This document shows positions 240-39,783 of a stretch of 40,992 nt of DNA, piece by piece. This DNA is from an uncultured bacterium (GTDB lineage: Bacteria; Verrucomicrobiota; Lentisphaeria; Victivallales; UBA1829). A program made the position numbers and the translations under genes. The first letter of the stretch is position 1. Every line of letters begins with the position of its first letter. The notes below the pieces were generated by a model, which did no database searches, was not told the origin of the DNA, and saw only the letters and a program-made list of their open reading frames with translations. The stretch covers positions 1 through 40,992 of the forward strand of contig CASERY010000072.1 in the NCBI GenBank assembly GCA_949290385.1, read 5' to 3'.

Positions 240-2045
240 TTACTGTTGCGGGACCCATGCGTCAAAAAACTCTTTGATAATCGGAGCTGCTGTTCCTCCA
301 CCGGAGGCTCCATTTTCGATCACAAGAGCAAAAGAATAGATGTTTGAGTTGTGCGGATCGATGGCAAATCCGGCAAACCATACATTTTTAGAGGGTTTCC
401 CATTATAAACCACGTCTGCGGTCCCAGTTTTCCCATAGAGAGTCATACGGCTGGAGTTGGCTCTTCTGCCGCTTCCTTCGGAATCATGAACGACAAGATA
501 CATGCCGTGGCGGACAGCATCCAGAGATTTCTGAGATGCGGCAAGGTGGCCGCGGACTTGCGTGGCTGCATCGTACACACTGACTTTTTTTCCCCCGTTC
601 GGATCATAGATATGTTTGACCAGATAAGGGCGCAGCAGGACTCCCCCATTTCCAATTGCGGCAAAATAACAGGCCACCTGCAGAGGGGTTACTTCCACTT
701 TTCCCTGTCCGAATGCCACATAGGCGGTTTCCGCTTCATTCCATGAAGGTCCGTTTTTAGGGAGGTAGCCGCTCCGTTCTCCAAGTTCAATTCCTGTTTT
801 GGAGCCGATTCCGGCGGAGGCATACATCCTGGAAAGGGCATCGATGCCAATGGCGACTCCTTCATTGATGAAGTAAATATTGCAGGATTTCATGAGAGCA
901 TGTGCCAAATCCATTTCTCCATGGCCGTAGCGGTTGTTACATTGAATGCCGCGCCCGTAGCCGTAATGCGTCCTGCCGGTACAGTCTACCGTAAAGGAGG
1001 GGTCTACTCCGGACTCCATGACAGCAAGTCCGCAGAGGGGCTTGATGATGGAACCGGGCAGATAGGAACCCATGGTGGAACGGTTCAGAAATGGATGCAG
1101 GGGATTCTGATTCAGACTGTTGAATTTGTCTGTTGTGATCCGTGGAACGAAATCCTGCGGATTGTAAGTCGGTGCGGAAGCCATGGCCAGAACTTCGCCA
1201 GTCCGTGCATTCATAACAACCATGCTTCCAGCGTATCCGTCAAGGAGCTTTTCACAAAGTTTCTGAGCATGGGTGTCCAGGGTAAGTTGAAGATCAAAAC
1301 CGTTCTGGGCATGGGTGGGGGGCTCCAGCAGTTCATGGATATAGCCGCTGCTGTTGACCATGACAAGCATGTTCCCGGGAGTTCCACGGAGCTTCTCATT
1401 GTAGATGGATTCCAGTCCGGAACGGCCGATGATGTCGGAAATATAATAAAAATATTCTGCACGATCGTCCGCTTTGTCCGGATCTTCTGAAGAAACATAA
1501 CCCAGAACCTGCGCAGCTATGCCTCCCTGAGGATATTCCCGGACAGGTTCCGGCGCAATTTCCAGCCCTTTGATCTAAGGAAGCAGTTCAGCAAGACGGC
1601 CTAATTCAATTGGTGTCAGGTCCGTGAAAACTTCCAGAGGAATCCCCGGTCTCAGATTTTTATGACGCAGCACCTGATCATATGTAAGGGGATTCTATCT
1701 GCCAATGCAAATGGAAATGCGCTCCGCTTCATTGAGTACATTCATAATGGTTTTTTCAAGATTGGACTCCCGCATTTCTGCAAGATGAAAACGTACATTG
1801 TAGGAGACACGATTGTCTACAATGGGCGTTCCGTTGCGGTCCAGAATGGAGCCGCGGACTGCCGGAATCCGGATGCGGCGTGCGCTTTGTTTCATGGCTC
1901 TGGTCTGATAATATTCTGCTTTATGCACCTGCATGTTCCAGAGTTGAAGAGCCAAGGCAGAAAACAGTACAAACATCAGAAAGAAGATCAATCCGATTCT
2001 CAGCCGGGTACTGGTAATGGTAATGCCTGCTATATTTAGAATCAT
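240..2045 (-). CDS. mrdA: Penicillin-binding protein 2 (peptidoglycan transpeptidase), two in-frame TAG codons
   Basis: PBP2 is the class B transpeptidase that cross-links peptidoglycan during cell elongation. Read through TAG it is 601 residues, normal for the family. It has an N-terminal membrane anchor (about residues 10-30), a dimerisation region with GLESIYNEKLRG, the active-site SxxK motif (PGSIIKP, Ser about 332), SxN (KSCN) and KTG (YGKTGTAD, about 535). TAG lies at 1695-1697 (residue 117, GR*NPLTYDQ) and 1575-1577 (residue 157, LLP*IKGLEI). The frame and PBP2 homology continue unbroken through both, with no other stop, to TAA at 240. It starts ATG two bases after the mreD stop, so it is the last gene of the operon. 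Under the standard code it would look like a pseudogene, but the intact catalytic motifs argue for a working enzyme with UAG as a sense codon. Confidence 0.93.
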
Positions 2046-2047
2046 AA

Positions 2048-2551
2048 TCAGTTTTCCTCCTCTTCCCGGCGCTCTTTTTCATCCATTTCCAGTTCTGCCC
2101 TGGATGCCCAGAAGTGAAAGAGAAAGAACCAGAGGGGCAGCGTAATGGCGGTAAAGAGCGAACTGAGCAGCAGATGCGGTGCAAACTGAGGCAGTCCGAT
2201 CCATCCGCAGTGCAGAAGAATGCCGGGAAAATAAAAGACCAGAGGGATGACCGCTCCCGGAAGAATATGAAAGATAAAGGAACGGATCATTACCCTGTGA
2301 GTCCAAAACTCTCCAGCATACGAAATAATCACGGAGCTGATGACTGAAACAGGAAAAGAATATCCTGCAGTGAAGTCCAGAACAATACTGCCGAAAATGG
2401 ATGCGACAAGGACCAGTTTTATGGGAAATGCCGACGAGAAATAAAAAATCAGACAGGCAAAGAACGGCAGGAACAGGCCGAATGACCTGGCCAGCAGTTC
2501 CAGCAGAATGGCAGCTGCGCTGAAGAGAAGGACATAAAGAATGCGGGTCAT
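2048..2551 (-). CDS. mreD: Rod-shape-determining protein MreD
   Basis: MreD is a small polytopic membrane protein of the elongasome. This 167-residue protein is almost entirely hydrophobic, with about five or six predicted membrane segments and a charged C-terminus (ELEMDEKERREEEEN). Sequence similarity in MreD is weak, so the call rests on size, topology and position between mreC and mrdA. The ATG overlaps the TGA of mreC (ATGA, 2548-2551), which implies translational coupling and shows that TGA works as a stop here. It ends in TGA and contains no TAG. Confidence 0.85.
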   Translation of the reverse strand: MTRILYVLLFSAAAILLELLARSFGLFLPFFACLIFYFSSAFPIKLVLVASIFGSIVLDFTAGYSFPVSVISSVIISYAGEFWTHRVMIRSFIFHILPGAVIPLVFYFPGILLHCGWIGLPQFAPHLLLSSLFTAITLPLWFFLFHFWASRAELEMDEKERREEEEN

Positions 2552-3423
2552 TCCAGAGATTCCCTTTCTGTCAGAATCGATACAAACCGGAGACTTTCCA
2601 GGTCCAGAGCCGGTAGGACGGAGGAAACTGCATAAAGTCTGGAATCATCGAGCTGTGCGGCTTTTCCATTGGCGGCTCCAGCCAGAGTTCCGACATAAAT
2701 GCCGGCAGGGGTTGCATCGGAATAACCGCTTGTGGAGACAACTTCACCGAGTCCGTATTTGGCCCCGGCGGAGAGATATTTTACGATTACAGTTTCTTCA
2801 TTAGGCGTGTCAGATCCCTGCATGATTCCATGCGAGTTGGACTCGGGGAGAGCAACGCTTAAAATACATTCCGAGGACAGCAGTGTTGCAATGGTGGCCG
2901 TGTTTTCGGAGACGGATACAACACGTCCTACAGCTGCCGTGATCAGATTTCCCGATTCTTCAGAAGGAAACATGCCCACTGCAAGGTTGCCCACCTGAAC
3001 TCCGGAGGATTCTCCCCGGTCAACCGTGAAAGTCTCATTCCAGGAGACAGGGTCGCGCAGGATAATTTCTGCATGAACCGGATGAAAAAGGACAGGAGGA
3101 TTCATGTCCAGCAGAAGACGCAGCCTGGAATTTTCTTTTTCCAGACTTTCAATGAGACTGTTCTGTGCAGAAAGCTGTGCATTTTCGCGATACATGGCCT
3201 GAAGTGCGGAAGCCAGTTCTTGTCTGGATTTCATAAGCAACACCTCGTCCGAAATGGCGATTTCCGCATTTTTCAGCACTTTCAGATAGGGATAGTAGAA
3301 GTCCATGGAAAGCCTGGTGATGGTCCTTCGCAGCGATTGATAGGCCGCTGCAATAAGAATGAGCAGAACCAGAATGCTTAGAAAGATCAGTAAAATAGTA
3401 TGCGGGGCTTTTTTCTGTTTCAC
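2548..3423 (-). CDS. mreC: Rod-shape-determining protein MreC
   Basis: MreC is the bitopic periplasmic scaffold of the elongation machinery. The 291-residue protein has an N-terminal membrane helix (about 9-27, TILLIFLSILVLLILIAAAY), a coiled coil of Glu/Leu-rich residues (about 70-105), and the paired beta-domain region that follows (DPVSWNETFTVDRGESSGVQ, then AVGRVVSVSENTATI). It starts with GTG, overlapping the TGA of the upstream gene in a GTGA junction at 3420-3423, so that start is fixed by context. It ends in TGA, overlapping mreD. It contains no TAG. Confidence 0.92.
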   Translation of the reverse strand: MKQKKAPHTILLIFLSILVLLILIAAAYQSLRRTITRLSMDFYYPYLKVLKNAEIAISDEVLLMKSRQELASALQAMYRENAQLSAQNSLIESLEKENSRLRLLLDMNPPVLFHPVHAEIILRDPVSWNETFTVDRGESSGVQVGNLAVGMFPSEESGNLITAAVGRVVSVSENTATIATLLSSECILSVALPESNSHGIMQGSDTPNEETVIVKYLSAGAKYGLGEVVSTSGYSDATPAGIYVGTLAGAANGKAAQLDDSRLYAVSSVLPALDLESLRFVSILTERESLE

Positions 3424-5337: not shown

Positions 5338-5809
5338 ATGTCCTTCTGTATGTGGCCTCCTACAAGGCGATTGGAGAATTTTTAATCATTCACGTATGAA
5401 TCCCTGTCTAGGCTGATAAAAAGATAGGCTCCTTTTAAGGGGGATTCGCAATAGGTGTACAAATCTGCAGAATAAATACTCCATGGGAGAAAGAATCCAG
5501 GATGGAGGAGGGAAAACAGAACAGCAGAAAAACGGGAGAACAGAACTGTCGGCATAGGAGATACACTGCTCTGCAACAAAAGAAAAGAAATGGATGCCTT
5601 GCGAGATCGCAGCAGGGAACCCATCTTGCTGTGATTCACTTGCTTCTGATGAAATTCCCCATAAGGAGTTTTTAAAGGACAGCATTCAGACTTTCCCGGA
5701 TCTCTCTGACAAGAGATGAAATTCTCCATAAAAGGAGTTTCAGAAGCCTGAAGATAGATATCTTTTCCCGGAAAAATTGATTGCTGTCTTGACCTATTTT
5801 GAGAAAATA
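5338..5809. other. Intergenic region with an imperfect direct repeat
   Basis: I see no convincing gene here; the open frames are low-quality and mutually overlapping. The region contains two near-identical direct repeats, GATGAAATTCCCCATAAGGA (5648-5667) and GATGAAATTCTCCATAAAAG (5715-5734), each followed by GAG(T)TT. They could be regulatory sites or a remnant duplication. This stretch would also hold the promoter of the mre operon. Confidence 0.4.
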
Positions 5810-6364
5810 TTATCCGAGTTTTGTTTTCAGAATTAGGTGCGTTTCATGAAATGAAATCCATGCGGAGTCTGAAACACTGATTCCTGTTTTAAAAAACTGT
5901 ACGGTAGCTTTGATGCTTGCATGTCGATTTTTAAGCATTTCGAAGGACTGAAGGAAGCATTGAAATGGCTGGTCACTCCATCGGATATGGTCTTGAAGCC
6001 ATTCCTAGAGGAAACGAAGCAGTTTCAGAATTTCACAAATAGCCGCTCTGGCCGGGATGGAGGAATCGTGCCGGCAAAGCGGTGCTGAGATTTGTTTGAG
6101 AAAAAAGCGATGTTCCTGTCTGTGTACGGATGCAAAGGGATAATCCGCTTGAATCATGAGATTTTCTTCCAGCAGAAAGATCTGTTTCAGTTCATGCTGC
6201 TGGCGGATCATGGAATAATGAAGGGCGTCCAGTGAATAATACCGGGCGCGGGCCAGTTCATTCCGAAGAGTTCTGCAGCAGATTTGGAGCTGGTTGTCTA
6301 TTTGCTTTTCCCGGTAACTGTAAGGCAGGAAAGGTAACGTTGTGTGGTTATGTTTTCCGGACAT
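5810..6364 (-). CDS. Hemerythrin-like protein read through one TAG
   Basis: Bacteriohemerythrins are four-helix-bundle proteins with a di-iron site that binds oxygen. Up to the TAG at 6005-6007 the frame encodes 119 residues with a recognisable core: QIDNQL, then FLLEENLM, then the metal-binding YPFASVHRQEH. Reading through the TAG immediately gives EWLQDHIRWSDQPF, which matches the family's last helix (WL.xHI...D). The conserved C-terminal motif therefore lies downstream of the TAG, making this one of the strongest readthrough cases in the window. The frame ends in TAA at 5810, giving 184 residues. The start has a good AAAGGG about eight bases upstream. Oddly, two usual ligand histidines are replaced: IDxQH reads IDNQL, and HFxxEE reads IFLLEE. 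The iron site may be altered or lost. The last 45 or so residues beyond the hemerythrin fold are unassigned. Confidence 0.75.
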
Positions 6365-10609: not shown

Positions 10610-11638
10610 TCAGATTTCGAAGAGCCAGTTGTGCTTGTCTTCGATTTCCCCATACTGGATACCGGTAAGGGTGTCATAAAGTTTCTTGGAAACCGGGCCG
10701 CATTCATGGCCGTAGTTAATGACTTTGCCGCCGATTGTAATCGAAGAGATCGGGGTGATTACTACAGCGGTTCCGCAGGCGTCAACTTCTGCAAAATTTT
10801 CCAGTTCTGTGGCTTCAATTTTACGTTTTTCCACGGGGTAGCCGAGATCCTTGGCCACCTGCATCAGGGATTTGTTTGTAACGCTGGGCAGAATGGACGG
10901 AGAATCGGAAGTTACGTATTTGCCGTCCTTGGTAATGGCCAGGAAGTTGCTGGTTCCGAATTCGTCAATGTATTTGTGTTCTCTCGGATCCAGGAAAAGC
11001 GGAATCGGATATCCTGCCTGTTTGGCAAGTTTTGCAGGCATAAGGCTGGCTCCGTAATTACCGGCTACTTTAAACTGGCCCATGCCTTTAGGTGCGGCGC
11101 GGTCAAAATCTTCACAGACGAGAGCGGGGACGCCTTTCAAGCCTTCCTTATAATATTTGCCGACAGGCATGACCATGATGAGGAAGTCATAACGGTCTGC
11201 AGGTGCGACTCCAATCTGTGGACCTGTTCCAATATGGAGCGGACGAATATAAAGAGATCCACCGGATCCGTAAGGCGGGACATAGTCAATGTTATCCAGG
11301 ACAACGCGGCGTACTGCATCGAGGAACATTTCCTCAGGAACTTCAGGTCCCAGAAGCTGGTGAACAGTACGGTTCATTCTCTAGCTGTTTTCCTGCGGAC
11401 GGAAAACACGGACTTTGCCGTCTTTGCAGCGGAAGGCTTTGAGTCCCTCGAAGGCGGCCTGTCCGTAATGCAGGCAGGTCGCAGCAATGGACATGGTAAT
11501 GTATGGATCACTGGAAAGGGTTCCCTTGTCCCAGGAACCATTGGACCATGTGTAGCGAATGTGAGAACGGACGGGCATATAGCCGAATCCCAGGGATGCC
11601 CAGTCGATATCCTCTCTGATACCGCGTGCGTATGTCAT
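10610..11638 (-). CDS. ilvE: Branched-chain amino acid aminotransferase, one in-frame TAG
   Basis: This PLP enzyme transfers the amino group between glutamate and the branched-chain 2-oxoacids, the last step of Ile, Leu and Val synthesis. Read through TAG it is 342 residues, typical of the family. It shows YGQAAFEGLKAF and FRPQENS before the TAG, and RMNRTVHQLL, YIRPLHIGTG, the PLP-lysine region FKVAGNYGASL, DEFGTSNFL and ITPISSITI after it. The TAG (11381-11383, residue 86) falls inside the conserved FRPxxNxxRxNR segment, at a site where family members usually carry K, Q, R or E. Both halves are needed for a functional fold. AGGAG lies just upstream of the ATG. It ends in TGA and is divergent from pal. 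Confidence 0.95.
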
Positions 11639-11716: not shown

Positions 11717-11745
11717 AATTTACTTGCATTTTCGCGGTTAGTCAA
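11717..11745 (-). promoter_or_regulatory. Candidate sigma70-type promoter of ilvE
   Basis: On the minus strand TTGACT (11740-11745) and TAAATT (11717-11722) are separated by 17 bases, about 80 bases upstream of the ilvE start. The -35 matches the consensus at five of six bases and the -10 at four of six. Confidence 0.4.
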
Positions 11746-11765
11746 TGAAATTTGCAAAAAACTCT

Positions 11766-11794
11766 TTGAAATTTAGCTGTTCCTGGTATATCTT
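11766..11794 (+). promoter_or_regulatory. Candidate sigma70-type promoter of the Pal-like lipoprotein gene
   Basis: TTGAAA (11766-11771) and TATCTT (11789-11794) are separated by 17 bases, about 50 bases upstream of the ATG at 11846. The -35 matches five of six consensus bases and the -10 four of six. Confidence 0.4.
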
Positions 11795-11845
11795 GAAAAG
11801 GCAGGCAGAAAAGAGAATGACAATTTTATCGAGGATTGAATAAGT

Positions 11846-12520
11846 ATGAAAATGACAAAATTTATGATGATTGCCCTGTTGGGCTGCGGAATCACGGTTT
11901 TTTCCGCTTCCTGTGAACTTTTTGAAGATCCTTCTGATATGGAGGACAGTGAGTTCTACGTAGGGGATGACTATTATACTCCTGCCGGCAATGCTTCGCG
12001 CAGCACTTCCACTGCCAGTACCGGTACTCGTGGCAGAGATGGATATGATCTTGACAATGCAGACAATTATCCGGATTATGCCGGCAGCGATGTTTCTGAT
12101 GAGAGCGGCCCCTCGGCATATGAGGATCAAGTCGGCGGAGATCCATATGTGGACGGATTCGGTCCCAGAGTTCAGGAGGTAAGTTTTGAACCTGTCTATT
12201 TCAATTTTGACCAGAACACGATTCCGTATTCTGAAATAGTCAAAATTGATGTGGTGGTTTCTTACCTGAATGAGCATGCGGACCAGGGGGTAGTTATAGA
12301 AGGAAACTGTGATGAGCGCGGAACCTCTGAATACAATCGTGCACTGGGCGAAGAACGAGCCATCTCTGTGAAACAGCAGCTTCTTCAGCAGGGAATTGGG
12401 GAATCCAGAATCAAAACCCTGAGTTGGGGTGAAGATAAACCTGCTGTCAGCGGATCCACGGAAGATGCGTACAGATTGAACCGTCGTGCTGAGTTTGTCC
12501 CTGTGTATCTGGAAAGATAA
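11846..12520 (+). CDS. pal: Pal-like OmpA-family lipoprotein
   Basis: Pal anchors the outer membrane to peptidoglycan. This 224-residue protein has a lipoprotein signal (MKMTKFMMIALLGCGITV, lipid-attachment Cys in FSASCELF, about residue 23). A long acidic Ser/Thr/Gly/Asp-rich linker (about 30-105) follows, then a C-terminal OmpA domain: YFNFDQNTIP, VIEGNCDERGTSEYN (the Asp and Arg expected to contact diaminopimelate), ALGEERAISV, and NRRAEFV near the end. The linker is longer than in typical Pal. tolA/tolB/tolQR are not present nearby, so Tol-Pal function is not shown; a general OmpA-type lipoprotein is the alternative. It ends in TAA, with a strong terminator downstream. Confidence 0.88.
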   Translation: MKMTKFMMIALLGCGITVFSASCELFEDPSDMEDSEFYVGDDYYTPAGNASRSTSTASTGTRGRDGYDLDNADNYPDYAGSDVSDESGPSAYEDQVGGDPYVDGFGPRVQEVSFEPVYFNFDQNTIPYSEIVKIDVVVSYLNEHADQGVVIEGNCDERGTSEYNRALGEERAISVKQQLLQQGIGESRIKTLSWGEDKPAVSGSTEDAYRLNRRAEFVPVYLER

Positions 12521-12602
12521 CTGATTCTGGTGGAAAATCCACGTCTGGAACAATGCTGTACCGAATGCCGTCTTGTGCAACACAGCATTGAATAGAATCT
12601 GA

Positions 12603-12642
12603 AAGACCTGTTTGCCTGAAAATGGCAAGCAGGTCTTTTTTT
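12603..12642 (+). terminator. Strong Rho-independent terminator after pal
   Basis: AAGACCTGTTTGCC (12603-12616) pairs with GGCAAGCAGGTCTT (12624-12637) over 14 pairs with a seven-base loop, followed by a run of T. Confidence 0.93.
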
Positions 12643-12786: not shown

Positions 12787-13851
12787 TTACTTTGCTTCTT
12801 CCTCATAAAGATATCCTGGATTACCGGAGATCATGGTGGAATTTTTGTGATTTCCATAGTCATGAATCAGTTCCTGAGTGGCCGCCTTTGCAAGGGTATT
12901 GCAGGATACGGAACAGGCATTGCAGGCATTCAGTTCCATGCCGATGGCTGGAGACATGCTGCCTTTGCCGTTGTCATCCTTACCACAGCACAGAGTGTTG
13001 CCGGTGAAAGTGATTCCGGTACAGGAATCCATCCTGAAATGGACAGAGTCACAGGGAGGAGTCCATTCTTCTTTGCCGCTCCGGTAAATAAGATTGCCTG
13101 TCAAGGTTATTTGAGCGCAGTCACGTAGCTCAATGCCGCAGTGCCCGCTGCGGTCGATATAGTTTCCGGTGATATTCCAGTGGCTGCCGCGGTGAATTGC
13201 AATACCACAGCAACGGTTCCATTCAATGCGGTTGCCGGTCATAGTGACAGACGCATTTTCTTCAGCGGTGCGGACTCCGGCTCCTTTATTGCCGCTCATC
13301 CAGTTGTCGAGGACGAATCCATCCCAGCCACGGATGCAGAGACCGCTGCCACCATTGTGTTTCAAATGGGAATGACGAATGGAGAAACACCAGACTCTTT
13401 CAAGGTGAATGCCGTCTCCGGAAAAACCTTCAACGCGGCAGTTGTCAATGACAGGAGTATCTTCCTGTTTGCCGTAGTCAGGTTTGTCGATCATGATTCC
13501 GTGGATGGTGCGCGGGAACTCATCTCCGCATCCGCATAGACAGAGAGAGTACAGTTTTACCCCGAATGCAGATGTCAGATTGAACATGCAGCGGGAGGTG
13601 TCATCACTCCGGAGAACAAGAACAGTGCCTGCGGGTTTGCGGTAGGCAAAGTTCGCGCTTCCCCGGATTTCGATATTCGGACGAGCTTTTAATTCTCCTG
13701 TAATATATGTGCCGGGAGGAATGAAAACGGTTCCCTGGATTTTCTAGGCCTGGTCTATTGCTTCCTGAATGGGCCGGGTATCATCCGCGATGCCGTTTCC
13801 GGCTGCCCCGAAATCCCGAACGTTGAAAAAACCGTATCCGTGACTGTTCAT
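12787..13851 (-). CDS. Parallel beta-helix (pectate-lyase-like) protein, one in-frame TAG
   Basis: This 354-residue right-handed beta-helix protein is probably a carbohydrate-active or surface-binding protein. The N-terminus is the Pectate_lyase_3 signature: FFNVRDFGAAGNGIADDTRP, IQEAIDQA, then after the TAG KIQGTVFIPPGTYITGELK. The rest is a series of helix rungs with repeated NxI/GN patterns (GFVLDNWMSGNKGAGV, MTGNRIEWNRCCGI, ITGNYIDRSGHCGI, LTGNLIYRSG). The TAG (13744-13746, residue 36) lies in a conserved region between the first helix and the first rung. I chose ATG 13851 because it has AAGGA nine bases upstream and restores the full family N-terminus. A start at 13587 would delete the signature. 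There is no signal peptide. It ends in TAA. Confidence 0.85.
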
Positions 13852-14211: not shown

Positions 14212-15336
14212 TTGAAGGAATGGATTTTTTACGGCTGCACTTTTATGGCAGCTTTTGTTTTGACGGCCGGAGTTACTCCGCTTTTCCGCAGACTTGCAGC
14301 AGTCTGGGGATTCATGGATGTGCCAAAGGCGGAACAGCATAAACTGCATGGAAAGTAGACTCCGCTTCTGGGTGGAGCTGCTATGTTTTCCGGATGGATC
14401 CTGACTATTTTCGGCGGATTCGCAGGACTTGGGATTTTTGGGGAGTCGCTGGGACTGAACGATGTGATGGATGGTGCGCTGCGAATGAGCCGCGAGCTGA
14501 CGGCTATTTGTCTTTGTGCATTTCTCTCTGTCCTATGGGGACTCCTGGATGATAAGAAACCCATGAAGGCAGGGGTGAAATTTGCCGGACAGCTTTTCAT
14601 CGCCATTGGAATTGTTGTCGGAGGAGGAATCCGTCTTTCCTGCTTCATCGACAGTCCGGTGCTGACCAGTGTGCTGACTGTCCTTTGGATGCTCTTCATT
14701 TTAAATGCGATTAATTTTTTCGACAATATGGACGGTCTGGCGGTTGGCACAGCAGCCATAGCATTTTTATTCTTTACAATAGCGGCCGGCATCAATGGTC
14801 AGTATCTTGTAGCGGCGCTGGGAGCCTGCTCGTGTGCGGCTTCCTGTGGATTCTGGTTGTACAACAAAAATCCGGCATCTATTTTCATGGGGGATTCCGG
14901 AAGCCATTTCCTGGCTTTTCTGTTGGGAATTATCAGTGCCAAGGTGACTTACTACAGTCCGGAAATAGACTCAACACGATTTGCTGTGCTTTTGCCATTG
15001 TTTATTCTGGCTGTGCCGATTTTTGATGCTTTTGCGGTTGTTGTGATACGTCTTCATAACCATAAGCCGATTTACAAGGGAGATCACAATCATATTTCTC
15101 ACAGATTCCTGCACTTGGGAATGAGCAGGAAACGGGCTGTACAGGCGGTTCATCTGCTGGTGCTGGTTTCCTGCCTGGGGGCTCTGCCGCTTTTATGGTG
15201 TGATTTGAAGACTTGTATCGTCCTGATTGTGCAGGGGCTGACGATTCTTCTGCTTTTAACGGTGGTTCAGATGGCCTCACGACATGAATCTGGAGATTGC
15301 AGCGCAGTCAATATCCTGAAAAAAGAACAGCCCTGA
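14212..15336 (+). CDS. WecA/TagO-type undecaprenyl-phosphate sugar-1-phosphate transferase, one in-frame TAG
   Basis: These membrane enzymes move a HexNAc-1-phosphate from a UDP-sugar to undecaprenyl phosphate, starting glycan synthesis. The 374-residue protein has about ten membrane segments and the family motifs LLDDKKPMKAGVK, NAINFFDNMDGLA, IFMGDSGSHF and the C-terminal GDHNHISHRFLHLGMS, which points to the WecA/TagO branch rather than MraY. The TAG (14356-14358, residue 49) sits in HGK*TPLLGGAAMF, a conserved N-terminal motif whose marked position is variable. The N-terminal segment before the TAG (LTAGVTPLFRRLA, GFMDVPKAEQHKLHGK) is part of the family and would be lost under the standard code. 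I chose a TTG start because GGAG lies eight bases upstream. It ends in TGA. Confidence 0.88.
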
Positions 15337-15359: not shown

Positions 15360-15492
15360 GCGGAAAGAAAAAACAGAAAGGGTAGACTGCTGCATCTGTA
15401 CTGGTGCCGGATGACAGCATAGACAGCCCTTCGACGGGTCCTGGAAATCCGGGGATTTTTCATTGAAATCAAAAAATATAAAGGAAGCATGG

Positions 15493-17700
15493 ATGAAAGG
15501 CAATATGCGTTTCCGTCGCCTGGGCGGCTCCTATCAGCTGATGATTGAAACGGCTGAAGATCTTCAGAATGTGCTGGAACTGAACGTTGCACACTGGGCT
15601 GTAACCAGCATAAAGATCAATTCCATGATTTGTGATTCGGCTTTTCTGGAAACGCTGGATTCCGGCAAAAACGGACGCATTCGTGCGGATGAAGTGCAGG
15701 CTGCTCTGCGTTGGCTTTTAAGCTATTATAAGGATGTTTCGGATATTGTTGCAGGTGCAGATCATCTGACATTATCTAAATTAAATCCGGAGAATCCGGC
15801 TGCAAGACTGATTCAGGAAAGCGTCCGGGTAGCCCAGCGGAATCTGAATCTTCCGGATTCAGATACCATTACGATGAATGAGCTGAATGATCATGCCAAT
15901 ATTATTTCCAATGCACTTCAAAACGGAGATGGTGTTATTCCTCCGGACCCGGTGGAATCGCTGGATCCGGAAGCTGCTGCATGTATTCGGGATATTATGA
16001 AACGGGTCGGATCTCATCCGGATGTCAGTGGGGTCCCGGGGGTATCCCAGGAGGATCTGGATACTTACGAGTCTCTGGCAAAGACCTATCTTGCCTGGAT
16101 AGACCGGAAGGAACAGGATGCCCGGACTCTGTTTCCCTTCGGAGATCATACCGCTTCATTTTATGCGGCTTTCCAGACCGTGGAAGAGGCTGTAGATGCC
16201 TTTTTCCGCAGCTGCGAAACACTGAATTATACAGCAGCAGGCGAGGCTAAGCTGCAAACTGTTGTTCATACCTTTGACCCTTTGAATGCCGCCTCGGTGG
16301 ATGCGTTTCTGGATCAATCTGTGATCGCGGAGGTGAATCGGGAATGCGTGCTCCGTCTGGACCAGCGGGTGAACCCCGTGTGGCGGGACAGGCTGACAGC
16401 TTTTTTCCAGGCGCAGGAACAATGCGGTCTTGATGGAAAATCCTTGTCATTAGCGGAATGGATCGCCCTCCGCAGGAATCTGGCGCCCTATGGGGCATGG
16501 ATCGCCTCCAAGAATACTTCGATTTTTGACGATGCAGAGTTGGACTGCATTCGTGCCTGGATGAATTCCGGGGTATGCGGACGGATTCGCGAACTGATGA
16601 AGGCGGATGTTGCCGTAGCAAAGAATCTGGATGGTTGCGGAGAAGCCCGCAAGCTGCTGCTCTATCAGAAAGATATGATGGAATTCCTGAACAATTTTGT
16701 GTGTATGCATAAGCTTTTTGAAAATGAGGCAAAGTCCATGATTCAGGTAGGAATTCTGGTTATGGACGGTCGTCAGTTTACGCTTTGCACACTGGTGCAT
16801 AATATTGCAGAGCATAAAGCCATTGCAGTGCGAAGTAATATTTGCGTCATGTATCTGGATATTGCCACGGAAGGCGGATCTGCTGTCAAGTCAATGAAAG
16901 TAGCCGTTGCCGTGACATCCGGACATATGCGGAATCTTTTTATCGGAAAAAGCGGAATCTTCTATACCCGCGATGGTTCTGTATGGGATGCAAAAGTGAT
17001 TGATTTCATTCAGCAGCCTGTTTCAATTGGAGAGGCTTTGTGTGCGCCCTTTCTGAAATTCGGCGAATTTATGCAGAAGCAGGCAGATAAGTTTTTCTCG
17101 ACTAAAAGTAAATCTTATGAAACCAATATTTCCAATGTCGTGGATAAAACGGCCTCTGCTCCTCCCGGTCAGATTGTCCCGGTTCCGGCTCCCGCTGCAG
17201 CACCTGCGGCGGCACCGGCAGGCAACGCATCCAATCCCATGATGCTGATGGGAGGTGGCATTGGCATTGCCGCGATTGGAAGTGCCTTTGCATTTATTGC
17301 GAAAAGTCTGTCCGGGATGTCTTTCTGGACGGTGTTTTCAATTTTGATGGGGATTCTGTTGATTTTTGGCGGTCCCATGATTTTATCGTCCATGCTGAAA
17401 CTTTTCCGCAGAAACCTGGCCGTTTTCCTGGAGGCAAACGGATATGCTTTGAACCGCCAGATGCGCATGTCGATCAAGATGGGCAGGATTTTTACTTTTT
17501 AGCCGAATCTACCCAAAGAATCTGTTTTCAAAAGGCCGGTGGATTTCATCAGCGCAAATGCGCCCCAGATACGAACCATGGGGCTCCGAATGAAAATTCT
17601 GCTGTGGATTCTCTGGGCGGCATGGCTTGCTTTCTGTGCATTTGCAGGATATTTCCTGATCTAGCCGCATTTAGCTAGCAAGTATCCGGGGATTTTTTAA
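15493..17700 (+). CDS. Unknown membrane protein with an EF-hand-like loop, two C-terminal TAG codons
   Basis: I do not recognise this protein, but it is long, well initiated and free of other stops. Near residue 50 it has DSGKNGRIRADE, a 12-residue EF-hand-type loop (D, G and terminal E in place), so calcium binding is possible. A largely helical central region follows, then an Ala/Pro linker (about 565-580), and two hydrophobic segments at about 585-635. A TAG at 17500 would end it at residue 669. The same frame continues with PNLPKESVFKRPVDF and a clear membrane helix (MKILLWILWAAWLAFCAFAG), past a second TAG at 17662 to TAA at 17698. Read through, it is 735 residues with a third membrane segment. 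The charged, basic residues beside that helix make it credible coding sequence. ATG 15493 has AAGGA upstream. Confidence 0.75.
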
Positions 17701-17817: not shown

Positions 17818-19626
17818 ATGAAGGAAATCACTAAAATCAGAAATTTTTCGATTATTGCCCACATTGACCATGGAAAATCCACCCTGGCCGACCGACTGCT
17901 GGAGGCAACTCACACCATTGAAAAGCGGGACCTTGTGCACGATCAGCTTCTGGATGCAATGGATTTGGAACAGGAGCGCGGCATTACGATTAAATCCCAT
18001 CCTGTGAAAATGAACTACAAGGCTTTGGACGGAGAAGAATACGAACTGAACTTGATTGATACTCCAGGACATGTGGATTTCGCTTATGAAGTGAGTCGTT
18101 CCCTGGCGGCTTGTGAAGGCGCTTTGCTGGTGATTGATGCAACACAGGGCGTGCAGGCTCAGACTGTGGCAAATGTGAATATGGCCATGCGGCACAATCT
18201 TTTTATCATTCCTGTCATCAATAAAATTGACCTGCCGGCCGCGGATCTGAATATGTGCTACGACCAGATGGAGGAGATTCTGGCCATTCCCAGAGAAGAT
18301 GCCATTGCGGTTTCCGCCAAGGAAGGAATTGGCATTCCGGAAGTTCTGGAGGCTATTGTCAAAAGAGTTCCCCATCCGCAGGACTGGAGCGGAAAAGGAT
18401 GTGCGGCGCTGGTTTTTGACTCCATTTACGATGCGTACCGCGGAGTGGTGACCTATGTGAGAATTTTTGGGGGAATGCTGCAGCGCGGAGACCGCATACG
18501 TCTTCTCAGTACGGGTCTGGAATCGGAAATCAAGGAGGTCGGTGTGTTTACTCCGGAGATGAAGGCCTAGGAAGAACTGCATCCCGGATCTGTCGGCTAT
18601 ATTATTCCGAACATTAAGAGCCCGAGTGATGCTCGGATGGGCGATACGATTACAACAATCAAGAATCCCTGTGCAGAAGCTCTTCCCGGATTTCAGGAAG
18701 TAAAGCCCATGGTGTTCAGCGGAGTTTATCCCATTGATACTGCAGATTATGAACAACTGAAATTCAGTATGGCGAAACTTCAGCTCAATGATGCGGCTTT
18801 TGTCTATCAGCCGGAAACTTCTGCCGCGCTGGGATTTGGATTCCGCTGCGGTTTCCTGGGACTTCTTCATATGGAAATTATTCAGGAACGGCTGCGCAGG
18901 GAATACAATATGGATATTATTGCCACATATCCCAGCGTGATTTATCATGTGTACCTGAAAGGCGGGGAAATGGTTTTGGTGGATAACCCGGTCAATCTGC
19001 CGGATCCGTCGGAAATAGACAGAATTGAGGAGCCTATGATTCATGCAAAAATCATGTCTCCTTCCAGTTATATTGGGGATATCATGAATCTTGTGATGAG
19101 CAAGCGGGGTGTCTGCACCAATACGGAAAGCGTGGATGGGAAACACGTCATGATTACTGCGCATCTGCCTATGCACGAGATTTTGATTGATTTTCATGAC
19201 AAGCTTAAATCCATAACCCGAGGCTACGGAAGCATGGATTATGAACCTGCCGGATATCAGGCAGGAAAACTTGTGAAGCTGGATATTCTGGTGAATGGAG
19301 AACCTGTGGATGCTTTTGCAAGCATTGTGCATGCGGACAGTGCCTATGCCAGAGGCCGTGAACTGACAGAGAGACTATCGGAAGTCATTCCCCAGCAGAT
19401 GTTCCAGATTGCCATTCAGGCGGCTATCGGAGGAAAAGTCATTGCCCGTGAAACGGTCCGCCAGCTGCGCAAGAACGTTCTGGCAAAATGTTATGGCGGG
19501 GACATCACTCGCAAACGCAAACTTCTGGAAAAGCAGAAGGAAGGCAAGAAACGCATGAAACAGATCGGGCGGGTGAATATTCCGCAGGAAGCCTTCATTG
19601 CGGTTTTGAAATCGAAAGAAAACTGA
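17818..19626 (+). CDS. lepA: Elongation factor 4 (LepA), one in-frame TAG
   Basis: LepA is a ribosome-associated translational GTPase. Read through TAG it has 602 residues, the usual length. The G1 motif [14 protein letters not shown]2 region GITIK, G3 DTPGHVDF, G4 NKID and G5 SAK are all present. The C-terminal domain carries [20 protein letters not shown] and the family tail [20 protein letters not shown]. The TAG (18568-18570, residue 251) lies in [17 protein letters not shown], in the beta-barrel domain 2, at a site where E. coli has Arg and B. subtilis has a different residue; it is not a conserved position. The two halves join in frame with no other stop. It ends in TGA. Confidence 0.97.
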
Positions 19627-19721: not shown

Positions 19722-21023
19722 ATGAATCTGATTGAAACCCTTAAAATCAAGCATCAAATCCGCCAGCTGCGAAACCGGGCGACGGATCTGCAGGCCCAGA
19801 TCCGTCATATGCTCCGTGTGGACGAGGATATTCTCCCGGAACCCAGTCAGAAGACATTAAACGGTCTTCTGGACGAATTGGATGCCTTGGATTTTTAGAA
19901 AGGACAGAAAACAACCGGTTGGAATGAAAAATGCCAGTAGGACCTGAATGCACTGGAGGAGAAAATTACGGAGCTGGAAGCCAGCTATACCCGTATTTCT
20001 GACTGTAAATCACTGTCATTCACGATGCGGGGATTTCTGGATGTGATTGTGGTGGCTTTGTCTGTGGCCTTTGGAATTCGTGCTTTGTTCGTGCAACCGT
20101 TCAAGATTCCCACCAGCAGTATGCAGCCAACCTTGTTTGGAATACATTACGTGGATGAGGCGGAGTCACAGCCGTACCGGAACGGGGTGATTAATTTCTT
20201 CCTGCCGCTGGGAATGTCTAAGGCTGAACTGACTCCGGGGAAGGCCGGTTTTCTCCGGGAAGGAGCGAGTCCGTTCCGCAGAAGCGTGGCAGATATGCTG
20301 AGTTGTGTGCTGGATCCGCTGAACTGTTACTGGGATGCGTCACGAGTGGCTGTGGGGGATATTTTGTATACCCTGCCGGGAAGCGATGTACGTGCAAATA
20401 TTTACAGATATCTGGACTTCAATCCGGAAAAGAAGTTTTTTCAGGAAGATGAAACGGTATTCAAGGGCTATCTGAGTGCAGGGGATCACTTGTTCGTAGA
20501 TCGTATGAGCATTCATTTTCTTCCGCTTGAAAGAGGAGATGTGTTCGTTTTCAATACGGAAAATCTAAGGGGGAGCAATGGGCTTCCGCTGTCCGGCTAC
20601 TATTATATTAAACGTCTGGTCGGACTGCCTGGAGATACCTTGAAAATTCAGAATCATGCTCTCTATATACGTCCCCGCGGGGAGACTGAGTTCAAAAGGT
20701 CGGATGAGTTTTCTCCAAAGTTCAGCAAAATTTATTCGGGTCAGGGCGGTTATCAGGGGTTCAATCCTGCAGGCCTCCTTGCAGAGGGGCGTGAATATAC
20801 TGTGCCGGAGGATCATTTCTTCGCTCTGGGAGACAATACTGCCAACAGTTACGACAGCCGTTACTGGGGACCGGTTCCCCGTGAAAATATTGTCGGACGG
20901 GCATTGAATATTTTCTGGCCGGTTTCCAGACGCTGGGGTTGGGTGGACCGCCTGCCGCCTCTGAATGTACCGACTGTGACACCTGAGTCTACAACACAGC
21001 CTTCGGCAATGCGTCTTCAATAA
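19722..21023 (+). CDS. lepB: Signal peptidase I, two in-frame TAG codons
   Basis: LepB removes signal peptides from exported proteins. This 433-residue protein is longer than typical because of an N-terminal cytoplasmic coiled-coil region (about 1-100) before the membrane anchor (MRGFLDVIVVALSVAFGIRA). Catalytic motifs follow: KIPTSSMQPTL (Ser) and YIKRLVGLPGD (Lys), then the GDNTANSYDSRYWG box. Both TAG codons (19896-19898, residue 59; 19938-19940, residue 73) lie in the coiled coil. The second gives KCQ*DLNALEEKITELE, where Gln fits the helix well. Starting only at ATG 20025 would keep the catalytic core, so this case alone is weaker evidence than ilvE or lepA. However, the frame upstream is open except for TAG, has GGAG before ATG 19722, and is rich in coiled-coil heptads. 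It ends in TAA. Confidence 0.88.
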
Positions 21024-21496: not shown

Positions 21497-22162
21497 ATGA
21501 AAAAGTATTATTTGCTTGGACTTATGAGCATGACGGTTGTTGTTTTTGCCGGTGGCATCGGGTCCATGTTGTCGCCGGAATGTTCCGCACAGAATGCCGC
21601 GGTGGCAGAGAAGCCTGCAGAAGAACAGGAGGAACCTGAATGCTTCGAACTGCATCTGGTCCATCCGAAAAATGAAATTCAAAAAAATAAGCTGCGTGAA
21701 TTCCTGAAATCCGGAGGAAGTCTGAAAAAATTCCGAGGCGTTCCGAAAGGAACCTAGTTTTATAAGATTTCAGATAAAATGGACAGTTCTGTTGCCTCTT
21801 TAAGCGGCCCGGATCTGGCAGATTCCTATGTGCTTCTGGAAAAAGAGGCACGAATTTCCCTGCCGGAGCAAATGCAGACAGGCATTGTCGTTCAGACAAG
21901 GAACTATGACAGAGGCAATTCGGCATCTGTCAATTCTATTTATGGTGTGGCTGTGCAGCTGACGGAACCCGGACGTATCCAGTTTTCAGATGTGTCATTT
22001 TAGAATGTAGGAAGAGAATTCGCTGTGGTCGACACAAAAGCAAAAAAGGTCATCGGCATTTTCAAAATCAATTCAGGGGTGAGCAATGGACAGGTTATCA
22101 TTTTCACACATGAATCTTTGGCCGAGGCGCAGGAGCTTCTGGATCGTCTGAATCAAAAGTAA
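21497..22162 (+). CDS. Unknown exported protein, two in-frame TAG codons
   Basis: I recognise no family. The 221-residue product starts with a signal-peptide-like segment (YYLLGLMSMTVVVFAGGIG) and an acidic linker (about 30-50). A compact domain then follows (about 50-215) with FELHLVHPKNEIQKNKLREF, YGVAVQLTEPGRIQFSDVSF and VGIFKI-like beta stretches, ending in an amphipathic helix (SLAEAQELLDRLNQK). TAG occurs at 21755-21757 (residue 87) and 22001-22003 (residue 169). Reading through keeps protein-like sequence, including a clean C-terminal helix, to TAA at 22160. Under the standard code only 86 residues would be made. Confidence 0.7.
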
Positions 22163-22477: not shown

Positions 22478-22882
22478 ATGAACACCGATCTCTTTATTCT
22501 GGCTCAGGAAGCCGCTGCACAGAGTACCTCTGCAACTGCAACAACCGAACAGGCAGCTTCCTCAAATACAGCGGAACCCGCTGCAGCGCCGGGAGGATTC
22601 CTGAGCGGATTGGGCGGAATGCTGCCCATGATTATTATTATTGTAGTAATGTTTTACTTGATGTTCCGCAGTCAGAAAAAGGAGCAGAAACGCCGTTAGG
22701 ATATGATTAATTCCCTGAAGAAAGGCGATAAGGTTGTTACTGTGGGCGGCATTTATGGAGAGGTCGCTGAGATCAAGGACGACTGCTTTATTCTTAAAGT
22801 TGCCAAGGATACAGAAATGAGTTTTGCGAAAAACGCTATTGCGAGCGTTCCCAGCGCCGGAGGAGAGGGTGTCAAGAAATGA
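22478..22882 (+). CDS. yajC: Preprotein translocase subunit YajC, one in-frame TAG
   Basis: YajC is a single-pass membrane partner of SecDF. Read through, it has 134 residues: an Ala/Thr-rich N-terminus, a membrane helix (MLPMIIIIVVMFYLMFRSQK) and the cytoplasmic domain SLKKGDKVVTVGGIYGEV. The TAG (22697-22699, residue 74) separates the helix from this conserved domain: KEQKRR*DMINSLKKGD. Relatives usually carry Q, K or E at this site, so it supports a polar residue and is consistent with Gln. Translation ends at TGA, which overlaps the ATG of secDF (ATGA, 22879-22882). That overlap shows the readthrough end is the true one, because the standard-code TAG would leave a 180-base gap before secDF. 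Confidence 0.95.
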
Positions 22883-25527
22883 GCAAACGTCCGATTCTCT
22901 TCCGAACCATATTCACCCTCATTGTGGTGGCCGTATTCGTATGGTCCATGTTCCCGTTGCGGGAAAGTGACTTTTACGAAACATTCCTGTCCACCGTGAA
23001 AGATCCCAAGGATCCCCAGATTGAGCAGCTGATCAGTCTGGCTAAAGAAAAACAGGCCAAGGACAAGGTGAATTATGCCTATCCGTCCATTGCACTGGAA
23101 GCTGCAGCCAAGGAGATGAAAATCAAGTCTGCGGATGGACGAGTTCATCCCATGGACCTGATCCAGTATATTAACCCGGTCATGGTGAAATCCCAGAAAC
23201 TGCAGAATAATGGTGATGTGATCTCCATGGTTCGCAAAAAAGCTGCAGGTTCCATTCATCTTGGTATTGACTTGAACGGAGGTGCGGAGTTTCTGCTTCA
23301 GCTGATTCCGGACGAGCGGGCCAAGGCAAATTTTGATAAATTCCGGGACAACGCTATTGAAACGTTGCGTAAACGCCTTGAAAGCCGGAGTATTTTCGAA
23401 TCTGAAATTTCTCCTGCGGGCCAGGACCTGATTTCAGTCAGGGTGCCCGTGGTTACAGAAGACGAAAAAGCTATTCTGGAAAAACTGATTCTGCGTTCCG
23501 CCAAGCTGGAATTCCGTTTGGTGCATCCGGATAACAACAGCGAGCTGGCTAAATTTTACAACTTCCTTGCACAGGGGCATGAGGCTTCTGAGTATCTGGA
23601 CACTCCGCCGGAAACGGAAATCATGTCCATTGAGAGCAGAAACGCCAAGGGAGAACTTGAAGTTACCTATTATCTGATTGAAAATGAAGTTCAGATGGAA
23701 GGCGATCAGATTGAGGATTCGTCTGTAGTGCTGGACCAGTTCAATATGCGACAGATCTCTCTGAGTTTTACAAAAGAAGGTTCTGACAGGTTTGCTGAAA
23801 TCACCTCGAAGAATGTGGGACGCCAGCTGGCAATTATTCTGGATGGAAAACTTTATTCAGCTCCACGTTTGAATGAGCCTATTATTGGAGGTCATGCGTC
23901 CATCTCCGGCAATTTCTCCCAGGATGAAGCCCAGGAACTGTCGGACTGTCTGGTCAGTGGAAGTTTGCCGTTTACAATTGTGATCGCATCCAGATCCGAT
24001 ATTGACCCGACCATTGGTTCAGAAACGGTTCGCCAGAGCCTGGTCAGCGGCATTGTAGGAACAATCCTTGTTATGCTGTTTATGCTGATTTATTATCGGA
24101 TGGCTGGTCTGATTGCAAACCTTTCTCTGATTTTCAACGCATTGATTATGCTTGGTGCTCTTGCCGCATTCAATGTAACTCTGACGCTGCCGGGTATTGC
24201 CGGTTTTATCCTGACCCTCGGTATGGCTGTGGATGCAAACGTGCTGATTTATGAACGTATTCGGGAAGAGTTGCGTCTGGGAAAATCTGTGGTCAATGCA
24301 GTGAATATCGGTTTCGACCGTGCCTTTTCCGCTATTTTTGACTCGAACCTGACGACCTTGTTCGTGGCACTGATCCTGTACTGGCAGGGATCCGGATCCA
24401 TTAAAGGCTTTGCCATGACGCTGGCAATTGGTATCTTTACGACCTTGTTTACTGCGGTATTCATGACGAAGCTGTTCTTTGACATTCTGTTCCGGTTTGT
24501 GCCGATCAAAGATTTGAAGATGATGAGTTTTCTTCATAATCCGAAAATCGATTTTATCAAGCTGAGCCGTTATACAATCACACTGTCTGTGATTATGGTA
24601 GTGGTGTCTCTTGGATTCATGGCCGTGAAAGGTCGTGCAATCCTGGGAATTGACTTTACCGGTGGTACCCAGCTGATTATCAACTATACCCAGCAGGATA
24701 AATCACAGAATGTGATTCCTCCCAGCGAGATCAAGGAATATCTGGCAAAACAGGGTTATGAAGCCAATGTAACCTATAAGAAAATTGGCGCAACCAGCAA
24801 CGATGACAATGGAACAAACGTGCTGGAGATTGTGATTCGTGATAAAGGCAATTCACAGGTTTCCTCTGAATCCAGCGAGAAACTTATCGAGGCAATGGAT
24901 GCAGCTTATCCCAATGTGAAATTTACGAAGTAGTCGGAATCCGTTCTGGGGGCTCTGATTGGAAAATCATTTATGATTTCCGCCATTATTGCACTGGCAT
25001 TGTCTATGGTGGGGATGATCCTGTATATGATGATCCGTTTCCAGTTCTCGTACTCCATTGCGGCGAATGTGGCGTTGATTCATGACGTTATTGTTTCAAT
25101 GGGAATTTATTTCATCCTGGGAGGCCAGTTTACTCTGCAGGTTGTGGCGTCTGTTCTCACCTTGATTGGATATTCGGTGAATGATACGATTGTAATCTTT
25201 GACCGTGAGCGTGAAAACCTGAAGCTTCAACAGGGGAAAACTTATTTTGAAATTGTCAATATGAGTATCAATCAGACTCTTGGAAGAACGATTCTGACCT
25301 CTGTATCTGTTCTGCTGATTCTGGCTGCACAGCTGCTCTTCGGCGGAAGCGGGATTCGTGACTTTATTGCCGTGATGTTTATCGGTTGTATCATCGGCGG
25401 TTATTCTTCCATCTTTATTTCTCCTGTTATTACGGCCTACTGGCACAAAGCCAATCCGAATGTCAAGGAGGTTGAAAAGACTTCTGAGAAGGACGGGGAA
25501 GCTTTAGAAACTGCTGAAAAAGTCTGA
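22879..25527 (+). CDS. secDF: Fused SecDF protein-export subunit, one in-frame TAG
   Basis: SecDF uses the proton gradient to drive late stages of Sec export. Here both parts form one 882-residue protein. The SecD part has LGIDLNGGAEFLLQL, a periplasmic domain, and membrane segments with LTLPGIAGFILTLGMAVDAN. The SecF part has FTGGTQLIINY and then LTLIGYSVNDTIVIFDRERE. The TAG (24931-24933, residue 685) falls in the SecF part, between its periplasmic segment and its membrane helices: KFTK*SESVLGALIG. Without readthrough, SecF would lose all but its first membrane segment. It ends in a double TGATGA. The second TGA suggests a strong need for tight termination. A terminator follows at 25579. 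Confidence 0.97.
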
Positions 25528-37615: not shown

Positions 37616-38097
37616 TTTTTAGCTTGGAAATATGTGAAAATCTTTGCCGGTTCTAGATATCCTGTATATCCCGGCTTTTTCTTTCAGCGCGAACTTGAAT
37701 TCCCGGATGAAGCTGCTGTTGGAGCCAGGTATTTTTCATGCATCGTGGTGGCTATGGAGGAGAAGAGGGGGCATGGGGGTGGAATGGCTGTTCTGCGAGC
37801 GTGTGCACTTTCTTGACAGACAAGAGAGTGTGCCGAAAAAGGTTGATGTTCAGAACAGAAACTGACAGAGGGACATGATCACTCGAAGAAGCGAGCCTGA
37901 GTTTTGTCTGAAATTTTCATCAGGGGGCATAGGGACATATTTTTGCAGAATTTGAAACATCTTGCCGTTTATTTTTACAATAAAACGTGCTGTTTCTTCT
38001 GTCGGGTGGTTTGCAAATCGTTTTTCGCGTATTACATTACAAAAAAAATACATGCTTGAATCTGATGATTATCAATTGAATATTTGGGGATAAACAC
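37616..38097. other. Intergenic region before the PpiD-like gene
   Basis: I see no supportable gene in these 482 bases. Short frames occur on both strands (a 60-codon plus frame and a 67-codon minus frame), but neither has a good ribosome-binding site or a recognised motif. The AT-rich part near 38035-38090 probably holds the promoter of the next gene. Confidence 0.4.
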
Positions 38098-39783
38098 ATG
38101 GGCATTCAAAGAATGAATAACGTGCTGGTAAAACACAGCAAATGGTTGTTTGGCATTATCACTGCAATTATTATTGTCTCTTTCGTGTGGTTTTTCACGC
38201 CGGGCGTAAGTGGAAATCTTCTTCTGGGCGGAATCGGCGGGAATTAGGAATACGGAAAGGTTTTTGACCGCGAGATAAGCTACGCGGATTTACACAACGT
38301 TGTGGTTTCCTTTGATCTCTTTGAGGCGGTGAGCCTGGGACAGCTTCCGAAAGGAACTTCTCAGAATATGGACGAGGAAATGTTCCAGACGGCATTCCCC
38401 TATGCCGCTCTGCTTAAAGTTGCCGAAATGGAAGGCCTGGAGGTAACAGATGAGGATGTGGCAAAATATCTGATTACACTCCCGGTATTCAAGGAGAACG
38501 GCAAGTTTTCTCAGGAGCGCTACAGCCAGTTTGTCAAAAATGCTGTAACGGGTTATGGTTATACCGAAAAACAGTTGGATCAGGCTTTGCGCGACATGCT
38601 TCTGATTACCAAACTGAATGACATGATAACAGCCGGAACTGTGGTGACAGAGAATGAACTTGAAGATTTCATGATGGAAAGCATGGCTCAGATTCAGGCT
38701 CGTAAAGTTGTGTTTGATCTGGAAAAAATAGATTCGCAGCTTAATGTCACCGAGGACGATCTGCTGAAATTTTTTGCAGCCAATTCTGATCGCTTTGTCA
38801 CAGAGCCTGTTTCTGGCGGACTCATGGCTTATATCCCGTATGGAGATGTTTCAGGAACTGCCGTAACAGATGAGCAGGTGAATGCCATGCTTCAGCTGGA
38901 ACCGGGTATTGACAAAATGTCTGATTCTGAAAAACAGGAAAAAGCTTCTCAAATCCGCGCTCTGCTGGAAAAGACCAACGCGGTTGAGAATGCTTCAGAG
39001 AAGATTGCAGACTTTTATCACAATGTGAGAGCTCTTGCCAAACAGCCTGAATTTATGGAAGATCCGGCAGAAGGCTTCCGTCATGAAGCCGCTGCCGCTG
39101 GACTCAGTGTAATGACTCTTGAAGGGTTGACAACAGCAACTCCGGCCTCTCAGTTCGTGGAAACGGACATGATCCGGGCATTGACTTCTCTGAAAAATCT
39201 TTATTCCATTACGAATGTGATTAAGGGATAGAACGGTTGTTATGTGGGGATGTTGCTGGATCGCCAAGAATCTGAACCTGCAAAATTCTCGGATGTGAAA
39301 GCAGAGGTGGAAAAGGCTTTTCGTCAGCAGAAGTCGATGGCTCTTTGCCAGGAGGCAATGAATGGGTTCCGCACAAAGATAACATCCTCTGAAAAACCCG
39401 GAGAGGATCTGGCATCTGCAGCGGCTGAATTCGGTGCTGAAATTGCAGCGTGCCCTGAAATTTCAGCGATTTCGCTGTTTAATGGCGGAGTCGCGTCCCT
39501 CTCTGCGGAGGAGCAGACTGCTGCAGTTCTGGCATTGCAGACACCTCTGAAAACGTTGTCCAATCCTATGCCCATGGGAAAAAATCTTGTAATGGTTTAT
39601 GTGGATGCAAAAATTTATCCTCAAGGGGATGCCTGGAAGGAAAGTTTGACAGAAGAATACCGTACTCTTTGTCTGAATGCTAAAAAAGAGCAGAAAATCC
39701 AGTCTTATCAGCGGTGGATTCTTTCGAATTGCATGATTACGGATGAGAATGCTCAGAAGAGCCAGGCGGAAAGCGCTAATTGA
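38098..39783 (+). CDS. Membrane-anchored PpiD/SurA-like folding factor, two in-frame TAG codons
   Basis: This 561-residue protein has the layout of PpiD: a short cytoplasmic start (MGIQRMNNVLVKHSKW), one membrane helix (LFGIITAIIIVSFVWFF), and a long periplasmic part with a SurA-N-like helical region (LKVAEMEGLEVTDEDVAKYL, FKENGKFSQERYSQFVKNA). I see no clear parvulin active site, so it may be a chaperone rather than an isomerase. TAG lies at 38245-38247 (residue 50, just after the membrane helix, GGN*EYGKVF) and at 39229-39231 (residue 378, VIKG*NGCYVGMLLDRQE). The first separates the membrane anchor from the rest, so readthrough is needed to tether the protein. GGGGA precedes ATG 38098. It ends in TGA. 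Confidence 0.85.

Follow-up and report, generated by a model that had tools for sequence, protein, structure and literature searches.

All the bacterial code changes known by 2021, before arginine codons were added, had reassigned UGA (PMC8629427). UGA stands for tryptophan in Mycoplasmatales and others and for glycine in Absconditabacteria and Gracilibacteria (PMC8629427, PMC13092985), and a 2026 report on UGA reassignments includes a newly reported case in which release factor 2 (RF2) is absent (PMC13092985). Outside the bacterial chromosome, UAG is likely glutamine in phages such as the Lak phages (PMC10746230), and UAG and UAA are glutamine in eukaryotic nuclear codes (PMC8629427). Genomically recoded Escherichia coli lacks release factor 1 (RF1) and keeps RF2 and transfer-messenger RNA (tmRNA) (PMC6207430). 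Here we analysed a 40,992-nucleotide stretch (the window) of an uncultured bacterium of the class Lentisphaeria, contig C72 of the draft genome G000, in which UAG occurs inside genes and is almost certainly read as a sense codon throughout the genome.

By comparison with the bacterial UGA reassignments, here too a stop codon has become sense genome-wide, but the altered codon is UAG and the factor that was not found is RF1. As in the phages mentioned above, UAG lies in genes and is likely glutamine; there the genes are those of phages whose hosts use the standard code, whereas here they are bacterial housekeeping genes and a tRNA with the anticodon CUA was not found. Recoded E. coli was engineered by removing UAG from the genome, while this case is natural and UAG is inside many genes, and the eukaryotic codes, in which glutamine is also common, work with a different release factor. 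A literature search that covered titles and the beginnings of abstracts, mostly without subscription papers and bioRxiv, found no published UAG reassignment in a bacterial chromosome, in agreement with the initial annotation of the window, whose author was aware of none.

The initial annotation had counted 17 in-frame TAG codons in 12 named genes. Every one of them was present in frame, and each of the 12 genes was a single frame uninterrupted by TAA, TGA or frameshift, as had been claimed. Families were searched with Pfam (E 0.001) and with TIGR/NCBIfam models at their own cut-offs, and in mrdA, ilvE, lepA, yajC, secDF and the hemerythrin-like, beta-helix and exported proteins a family model spans a TAG on one frame. 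The TAG-bearing frames of the window are the following (residues in parentheses are those of the TAG).

240 to 2045, reverse strand: mrdA (PBP2), TAG at 1695-1697 and 1575-1577; TIGR03423, 468 bits, over cut-off, a single match of residues 16-598 across both TAGs.
5810 to 6364, reverse strand: hemerythrin-like protein, TAG at 6005-6007 (residue 120); PF01814, 26.9 bits (cut-off 25.3), match 27-128 spans the TAG.
10610 to 11638, reverse strand: ilvE, TAG at 11381-11383 (residue 86); TIGR01123, 369 bits, match 36-342 spans the TAG.
12787 to 13851, reverse strand: beta-helix/pectate-lyase-like protein, TAG at 13744-13746 (residue 36); PF12708, match 8-67 spans the TAG.
14212 to 15336, forward strand: WecA-type glycosyltransferase, TAG at 14356-14358 (residue 49); PF00953, 102 bits, match 97-243, the TAG being outside it.
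15463 to 17700, forward strand: large protein, TAG at 17500-17502 and 17662-17664; its earlier name, EF-hand-like, did not hold, no Pfam family being matched at E 0.001.
17818 to 19626, forward strand: lepA, TAG at 18568-18570 (residue 251); TIGR01393, 951 bits, a single match of residues 6-599 spans the TAG.
19722 to 21023, forward strand: lepB-like signal peptidase, TAG at 19896-19898 and 19938-19940 (residues 59 and 73); PF10502, 123 bits, best stretch 251-399, both TAGs being N-terminal of it.
21497 to 22162, forward strand: exported protein, TAG at 21755-21757 and 22001-22003; PF22599, 28 bits, match 146-214 spans the second TAG (residue 169).
22478 to 22882, forward strand: yajC, TAG at 22697-22699 (residue 74); TIGR00739, 93 bits, match 45-124 spans the TAG.
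22879 to 25527, forward strand: secDF, TAG at 24931-24933 (residue 685); a single frame matches both the SecD and the SecF model over cut-off, and the TAG is inside the SecF match (557-854).
38098 to 39783, forward strand: PpiD-like peptidylprolyl isomerase, TAG at 38245-38247 and 39229-39231; NF008054, match 12-236 with 74 bits, short of the cut-off (493).
40039 to 40041, forward strand: TAG ahead of ispF, residue 19 of the frame 39985-40575, whose ispF domain matches residues 40-193.

The last of these is an eighteenth in-frame TAG, which probably lies before the true start of ispF and outside the real gene. This frame opens with GTG, but the gene itself probably begins with the ATG at 40087. 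It had also been stated that no main gene of the window ends in TAG. The 26 listed frames, among which 5382-5729 and 11738-12628 may not be genes, do end in TAA (14) or TGA (12), but the list was built with TAG open and could not have shown a TAG end.

The draft genome has 2,680,693 bases in 168 contigs and is 78.48% complete and 2.03% contaminated; all searches of the genome reported below apply to this incomplete assembly. Genome-wide tests were performed on 66 pieces amounting to 923,900 bases, 34% of the assembly. Gene models built with TAG open contained 351 internal TAG codons in 224 of 629 genes, a density of 1.5 per 1000 codons, and ended in 323 TGA and 306 TAA. The coding score was highest with TAG open (38,899), followed by the standard code (35,957), TAA open (35,376) and TGA open (33,811). 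Since such models cannot end in TAG, the open reading frames (ORFs) of G008, the closest relative searched, were used as an unbiased check: 1.17 Mb of this genome was sampled and its 2,556 ORFs served as queries. The 202 matches, covering 70,401 aligned residues, held in frame 70 TAG, 6 TGA and 1 TAA. Judged by eye, several of the TGA and TAA codons seem to come from matches in the wrong frame.

The ends of conserved genes gave the complementary result. Among the stop-type codons met at 174 conserved C-termini, TAA or TGA came first in 171 cases (within 15 codons in 161, later in 10) and TAG in three. The first of the three TAGs is inside a lysine-rich tail that continues to TAA TAA, the second lies 36 codons past the end of the relative's protein, and the third falls precisely where the relative's protein ends and is followed by TGA three codons on. 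With at most one exception, TAG does not end conserved genes, and the reassignment of UAG to sense proposed initially is supported by the coding score, the 70 against 7 in-frame stops and the avoidance of TAG at conserved ends.

Core genes are among those concerned. TAG-bearing frames scored over cut-off for the models of SecY, DnaB (2 TAG), L9, L25, CarB, RecJ, LepA, IlvE, PheT and RF2, and housekeeping genes with TAG include lepA, pheT, ilvE, secDF, mrdA, prfB, secY, dnaB, rplI, carB and recJ. A UAG-recoded phage (code 15) was ruled out on this ground. It is hardly credible that pseudogenes, sequencing error or contamination produced the pattern. The assembly is a draft in 168 contigs and the pieces differ somewhat in TAG density (chi-square per degree of freedom 1.68), as an artefact of this kind would allow; against it, conserved frames hold ten times more TAG than other stops (70 and 7), a ratio that bears out the earlier dismissal of pseudogene decay, and among pieces in which at least 5 TAG are expected only one holds 1 or none. 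Moreover, the database copy of the window mrdA (P0003), a fragment of 376 of the 601 residues that begins past both TAGs, represents 4 contigs, which is what recurrent TAGs would lead one to expect.

In the genes compared, the relatives have no in-frame TAG. PheT was matched, sometimes partially, in 127 of 137 genomes of the order; it has 3 TAG in G000 and none in the other 126; across the class, with 180 of 197 genomes matched, there was no other TAG among the matches listed. In the reverse test, G000 proteins against G008 gave 170 matches over 60,515 residues with 0 TAG, 5 TAA and 1 TGA internally. None of 128 gene ends of G008 is TAG; a second way of counting gave TAG for 1 gene in 175 aligned and for 26 ORFs in a set of 512 long, uncurated ones. 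For LepA of the window, the closest named match is that of a sheep-rumen Lentisphaeria metagenome-assembled genome (83% identity), and a scan of named genomes gave one close relative (L055), whose lepA frame has no TAG.

We looked for RF1, the absence of which had been suggested as a check. No protein of the draft genome passed the TIGR00019 cut-off and no intact RF1 was found in it, while 56 of the 61 genomes surveyed, G000 among them, had one over the cut-off. The remaining ones were G000, G001 (415.8 bits, full length), G016, whose RF1 is probably cut by a contig end, G034 and G046. The best match to the RF1 model in G000 is RF2 itself (prfB, 524.7 bits), with an in-frame TAG at residue 42. 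Considering the genes around prfA in relatives, rpmE (L31) is just upstream of it in nine of ten loci from other families of the order (the L31 model was matched in L135, the one tested), and in G008 and G005 prfA is directly followed by an MsbA-like ABC-transporter gene. On contig C43 of G000 these two neighbours stand side by side:

944 to 1147 of locus L182: rpmE, L31 model 94.6 bits.
From 1550 of locus L182: MsbA-like ABC-transporter gene matching that of the relatives, neighbour of rpmE.

The 402 base pairs between them contain neither prfA nor a remnant of RF1 (best E 4.3). Taken together with the TAG evidence, loss is a simpler reading than relocation, and RF1 has very probably been lost.

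A tRNA with the anticodon CUA, the other expected partner of a sense UAG, was not detected. Among 46 tRNAs of the assembly, 45 with anticodons given by ARAGORN and a cut-off one (Glu UUC) assigned by eye, none had it. Of the three outcomes that the initial annotation had named as a refutation, two did not occur, since no intact RF1 was found and conserved genes do not end in TAG with at most one exception; the third, the lack of a CUA tRNA, so far points in the refuting direction. Extending the Rfam search to E 10 added only a 13.7-bit piece inside tmRNA, which is present. Ile(GAU) and Ser(GCU) tRNAs were not called either, as may be expected at this completeness. With relaxed settings, ARAGORN made 5,958 predictions in 0.92 Mb; 19 of them were CTA calls, which were treated as noise. 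Two anticodon-T-loop patterns gave 14 hits, of which the two that were tRNA-like by eye were tested. One of the two, L297, turned out to be a real tRNA-Arg(UCU). The other is:

65 to 149 of contig C164, reverse strand: tRNA-like element L298, of weak structure, with CUA in the loop and with parts like the T arm and variable arm of tRNA-Ser(GCU).

L298 is only a lead. It would make UAG a serine codon, and it touches the possibility that UAG is fully reassigned to serine, lysine or alanine by a tRNA of its own. L298 aligns without gaps over 36 nucleotides with the variable and T arms of the tRNA-Ser(GCU) of G008, a score that 2 of 600 simulated sequences also attained, the element having been chosen from several pattern hits. 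On the other side, ARAGORN does not call it, its best Rfam match is tRNA-Sec with 19.4 bits (E 0.97), and its fold is no stabler than that of shuffled sequences (z 0.74). A 20-base piece of it had no match in the viral contigs searched. The residues aligned at TAG sites bear on the same possibility: alanine is the commonest of them (12 of 66), but lysine, serine and alanine fall behind glutamine in the fullest test by 18, 20 and 31 nats, and by less in the others. Assignment to one of these residues is in our judgement improbable.

The fullest test used 65 aligned TAG sites, with the columns of 11 of them taken from the 12 closest proteins. Glutamine was first of the 20 residues (log-odds −4.0; Lys −21.9, Ser −24.3, Ala −34.9) and kept this place in 918 of 1000 bootstrap samples. 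It was also first in the 19 deep columns (7.6; Lys 1.7, Ala 1.6), in a test of 58 sites matched for context, with 190 of 300 bootstrap samples, and, before inclusion of the deep columns, with 381 of 500; a first attempt with 18 sites was too small and was replaced by these larger ones. Hence glutamine ranks best in each test, with bootstrap values from 63% to 92%. Individual sites show the mixture behind these values: the TAG of yajC corresponds to Q in G008 and that of secDF to K, while at the two sites of mrdA the two closest proteins (75-77% identical) carry K,K and Q,Q. The 11 deepest columns split in two sets, one Q/K/R-like and the other A/S/T/D-like. From these alignments glutamine is predicted, with good probability, as the main residue at UAG, for which the initial annotation had claimed no amino acid; the codon may be young, or its reading weak.

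Some bacteria use UAG for pyrrolysine. That it encodes pyrrolysine at dedicated sites here is very improbable: the best PylS match in the 78%-complete assembly reached 20.2 bits against a cut-off of 178.15, and TAG is scattered among housekeeping genes, at positions that are mostly polar and variable.

The main rival is near-cognate reading. According to this explanation UAG is unassigned: RF1 is gone, there is no dedicated tRNA, and near-cognate tRNAs, glutamine first and then lysine, serine, tyrosine or others, read the codon slowly and ambiguously, so that TAG persists only at tolerant positions. Besides the failure to find a CUA tRNA, it is favoured by the conservation of TAG sites, far below that of the sense codons tested, and by RF1-deleted E. 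coli, in which UAG is suppressed by near-cognate tRNAs, glutamine and tyrosine being known (PMC6207430). The base that follows TAG in the G000 genes was also considered on its side: it is A in 43%, compared with 28-30% after CAG, AAG and GAG, although A also follows TTG and CAA in 42%. T follows TAG in 8%, and the bias at this position may reflect the decoding context. What speaks against an unassigned codon is that TAG is common, at the density given above, and is found in core genes such as pheT (3), RF2, secY, dnaB (2), rplI and carB, in which a codon read badly or ambiguously ought to carry a cost. We consider it unlikely that UAG is unassigned. In an intermediate state, TAG would have all but vanished from the family, prfA would have been deleted, and UAG would since have come back in hundreds of genes. 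A bacterium in the middle of this capture, without RF1 and without a dedicated UAG tRNA, reading UAG mainly as glutamine through the ordinary tRNA-Gln(CUG), would be a wild counterpart of recoded E. coli; this is possible, though doubtful.

The relatives suggest how a sense UAG could have arisen. In eight samples from the family (5 kb to 1.17 Mb) the ratio of observed to expected TAG was 0.13-0.28, and in loci of other families 0.36. For CTAG the ratio in the same eight samples was 0.00-0.03; G008 has 17 copies in 1.17 Mb, G000 has 216 in 0.92 Mb. TAG is strongly avoided on both strands, and CTAG is nearly absent in G008 and the other family samples. The family probably avoided TAG until the codon was nearly unused; RF1 would then have become dispensable and prfA have been deleted, with RF2 terminating genes at UAA and UGA, and mutation would have brought UAG back, to be captured as sense. 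Decoding would be by a glutamine tRNA, which may be a dedicated one with the anticodon CUA, encoded in the 22% that the assembly lacks, or the ordinary tRNA-Gln(CUG) through near-cognate pairing. This succession of codon disappearance, RF1 loss and capture fits the data of the relatives, the order of events being our reconstruction. Taken as a whole, a sense UAG that likely means glutamine, with RF1 gone by this route, is a probable explanation.

Several results weigh against that explanation. The prfA slot is a composite: in G008 the gene upstream of prfA is not rpmE but another one, with no NCBIfam family at 1e-20 and named glutamine synthetase type III by eye; no rpmE was seen in the 1.17 Mb of G008 read, and the transporter was not found beside prfA in G004. 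RF1 could also sit in, or have moved to, the missing part of the assembly. The third TAG-first conserved end could be a real TAG stop. A CUA tRNA was not found with Rfam (E 0.001) or ARAGORN. The lead of glutamine depends on the model, being 7 nats when a free share of any-residue sites is allowed and 4 nats when the context-matched test includes such a share, and a mixture of glutamine and serine scores 3.7 compared with −4.0 for glutamine alone. The log-odds for Q of −4 at TAG sites contrasts with a mean of 80 (minimum 46) in 500 samples of 65 true Q codons. TAG sites are thus far less conserved than true glutamine codons, which places TAG at tolerant sites, and this would be odd if the change from CAG to TAG were freely synonymous. 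Finally, the ratio of observed to expected TAG in G000 itself is still low (0.26).

If the explanation is true, codon disappearance and capture could be tested in this genome, whose relatives keep RF1 and, as far as genes were compared, lack TAG in frame. Annotation under the standard code would then also cut proteins short, as in the 376-residue database copy of mrdA. In relation to the contigs used here, two copies of tRNA-Glu(UUC) are located at the end of C43 (L182, 20-225) and a third, cut copy at the start of C154 (L045, 1-69); the copies are alike by eye, and the two contigs may join at this repeat.

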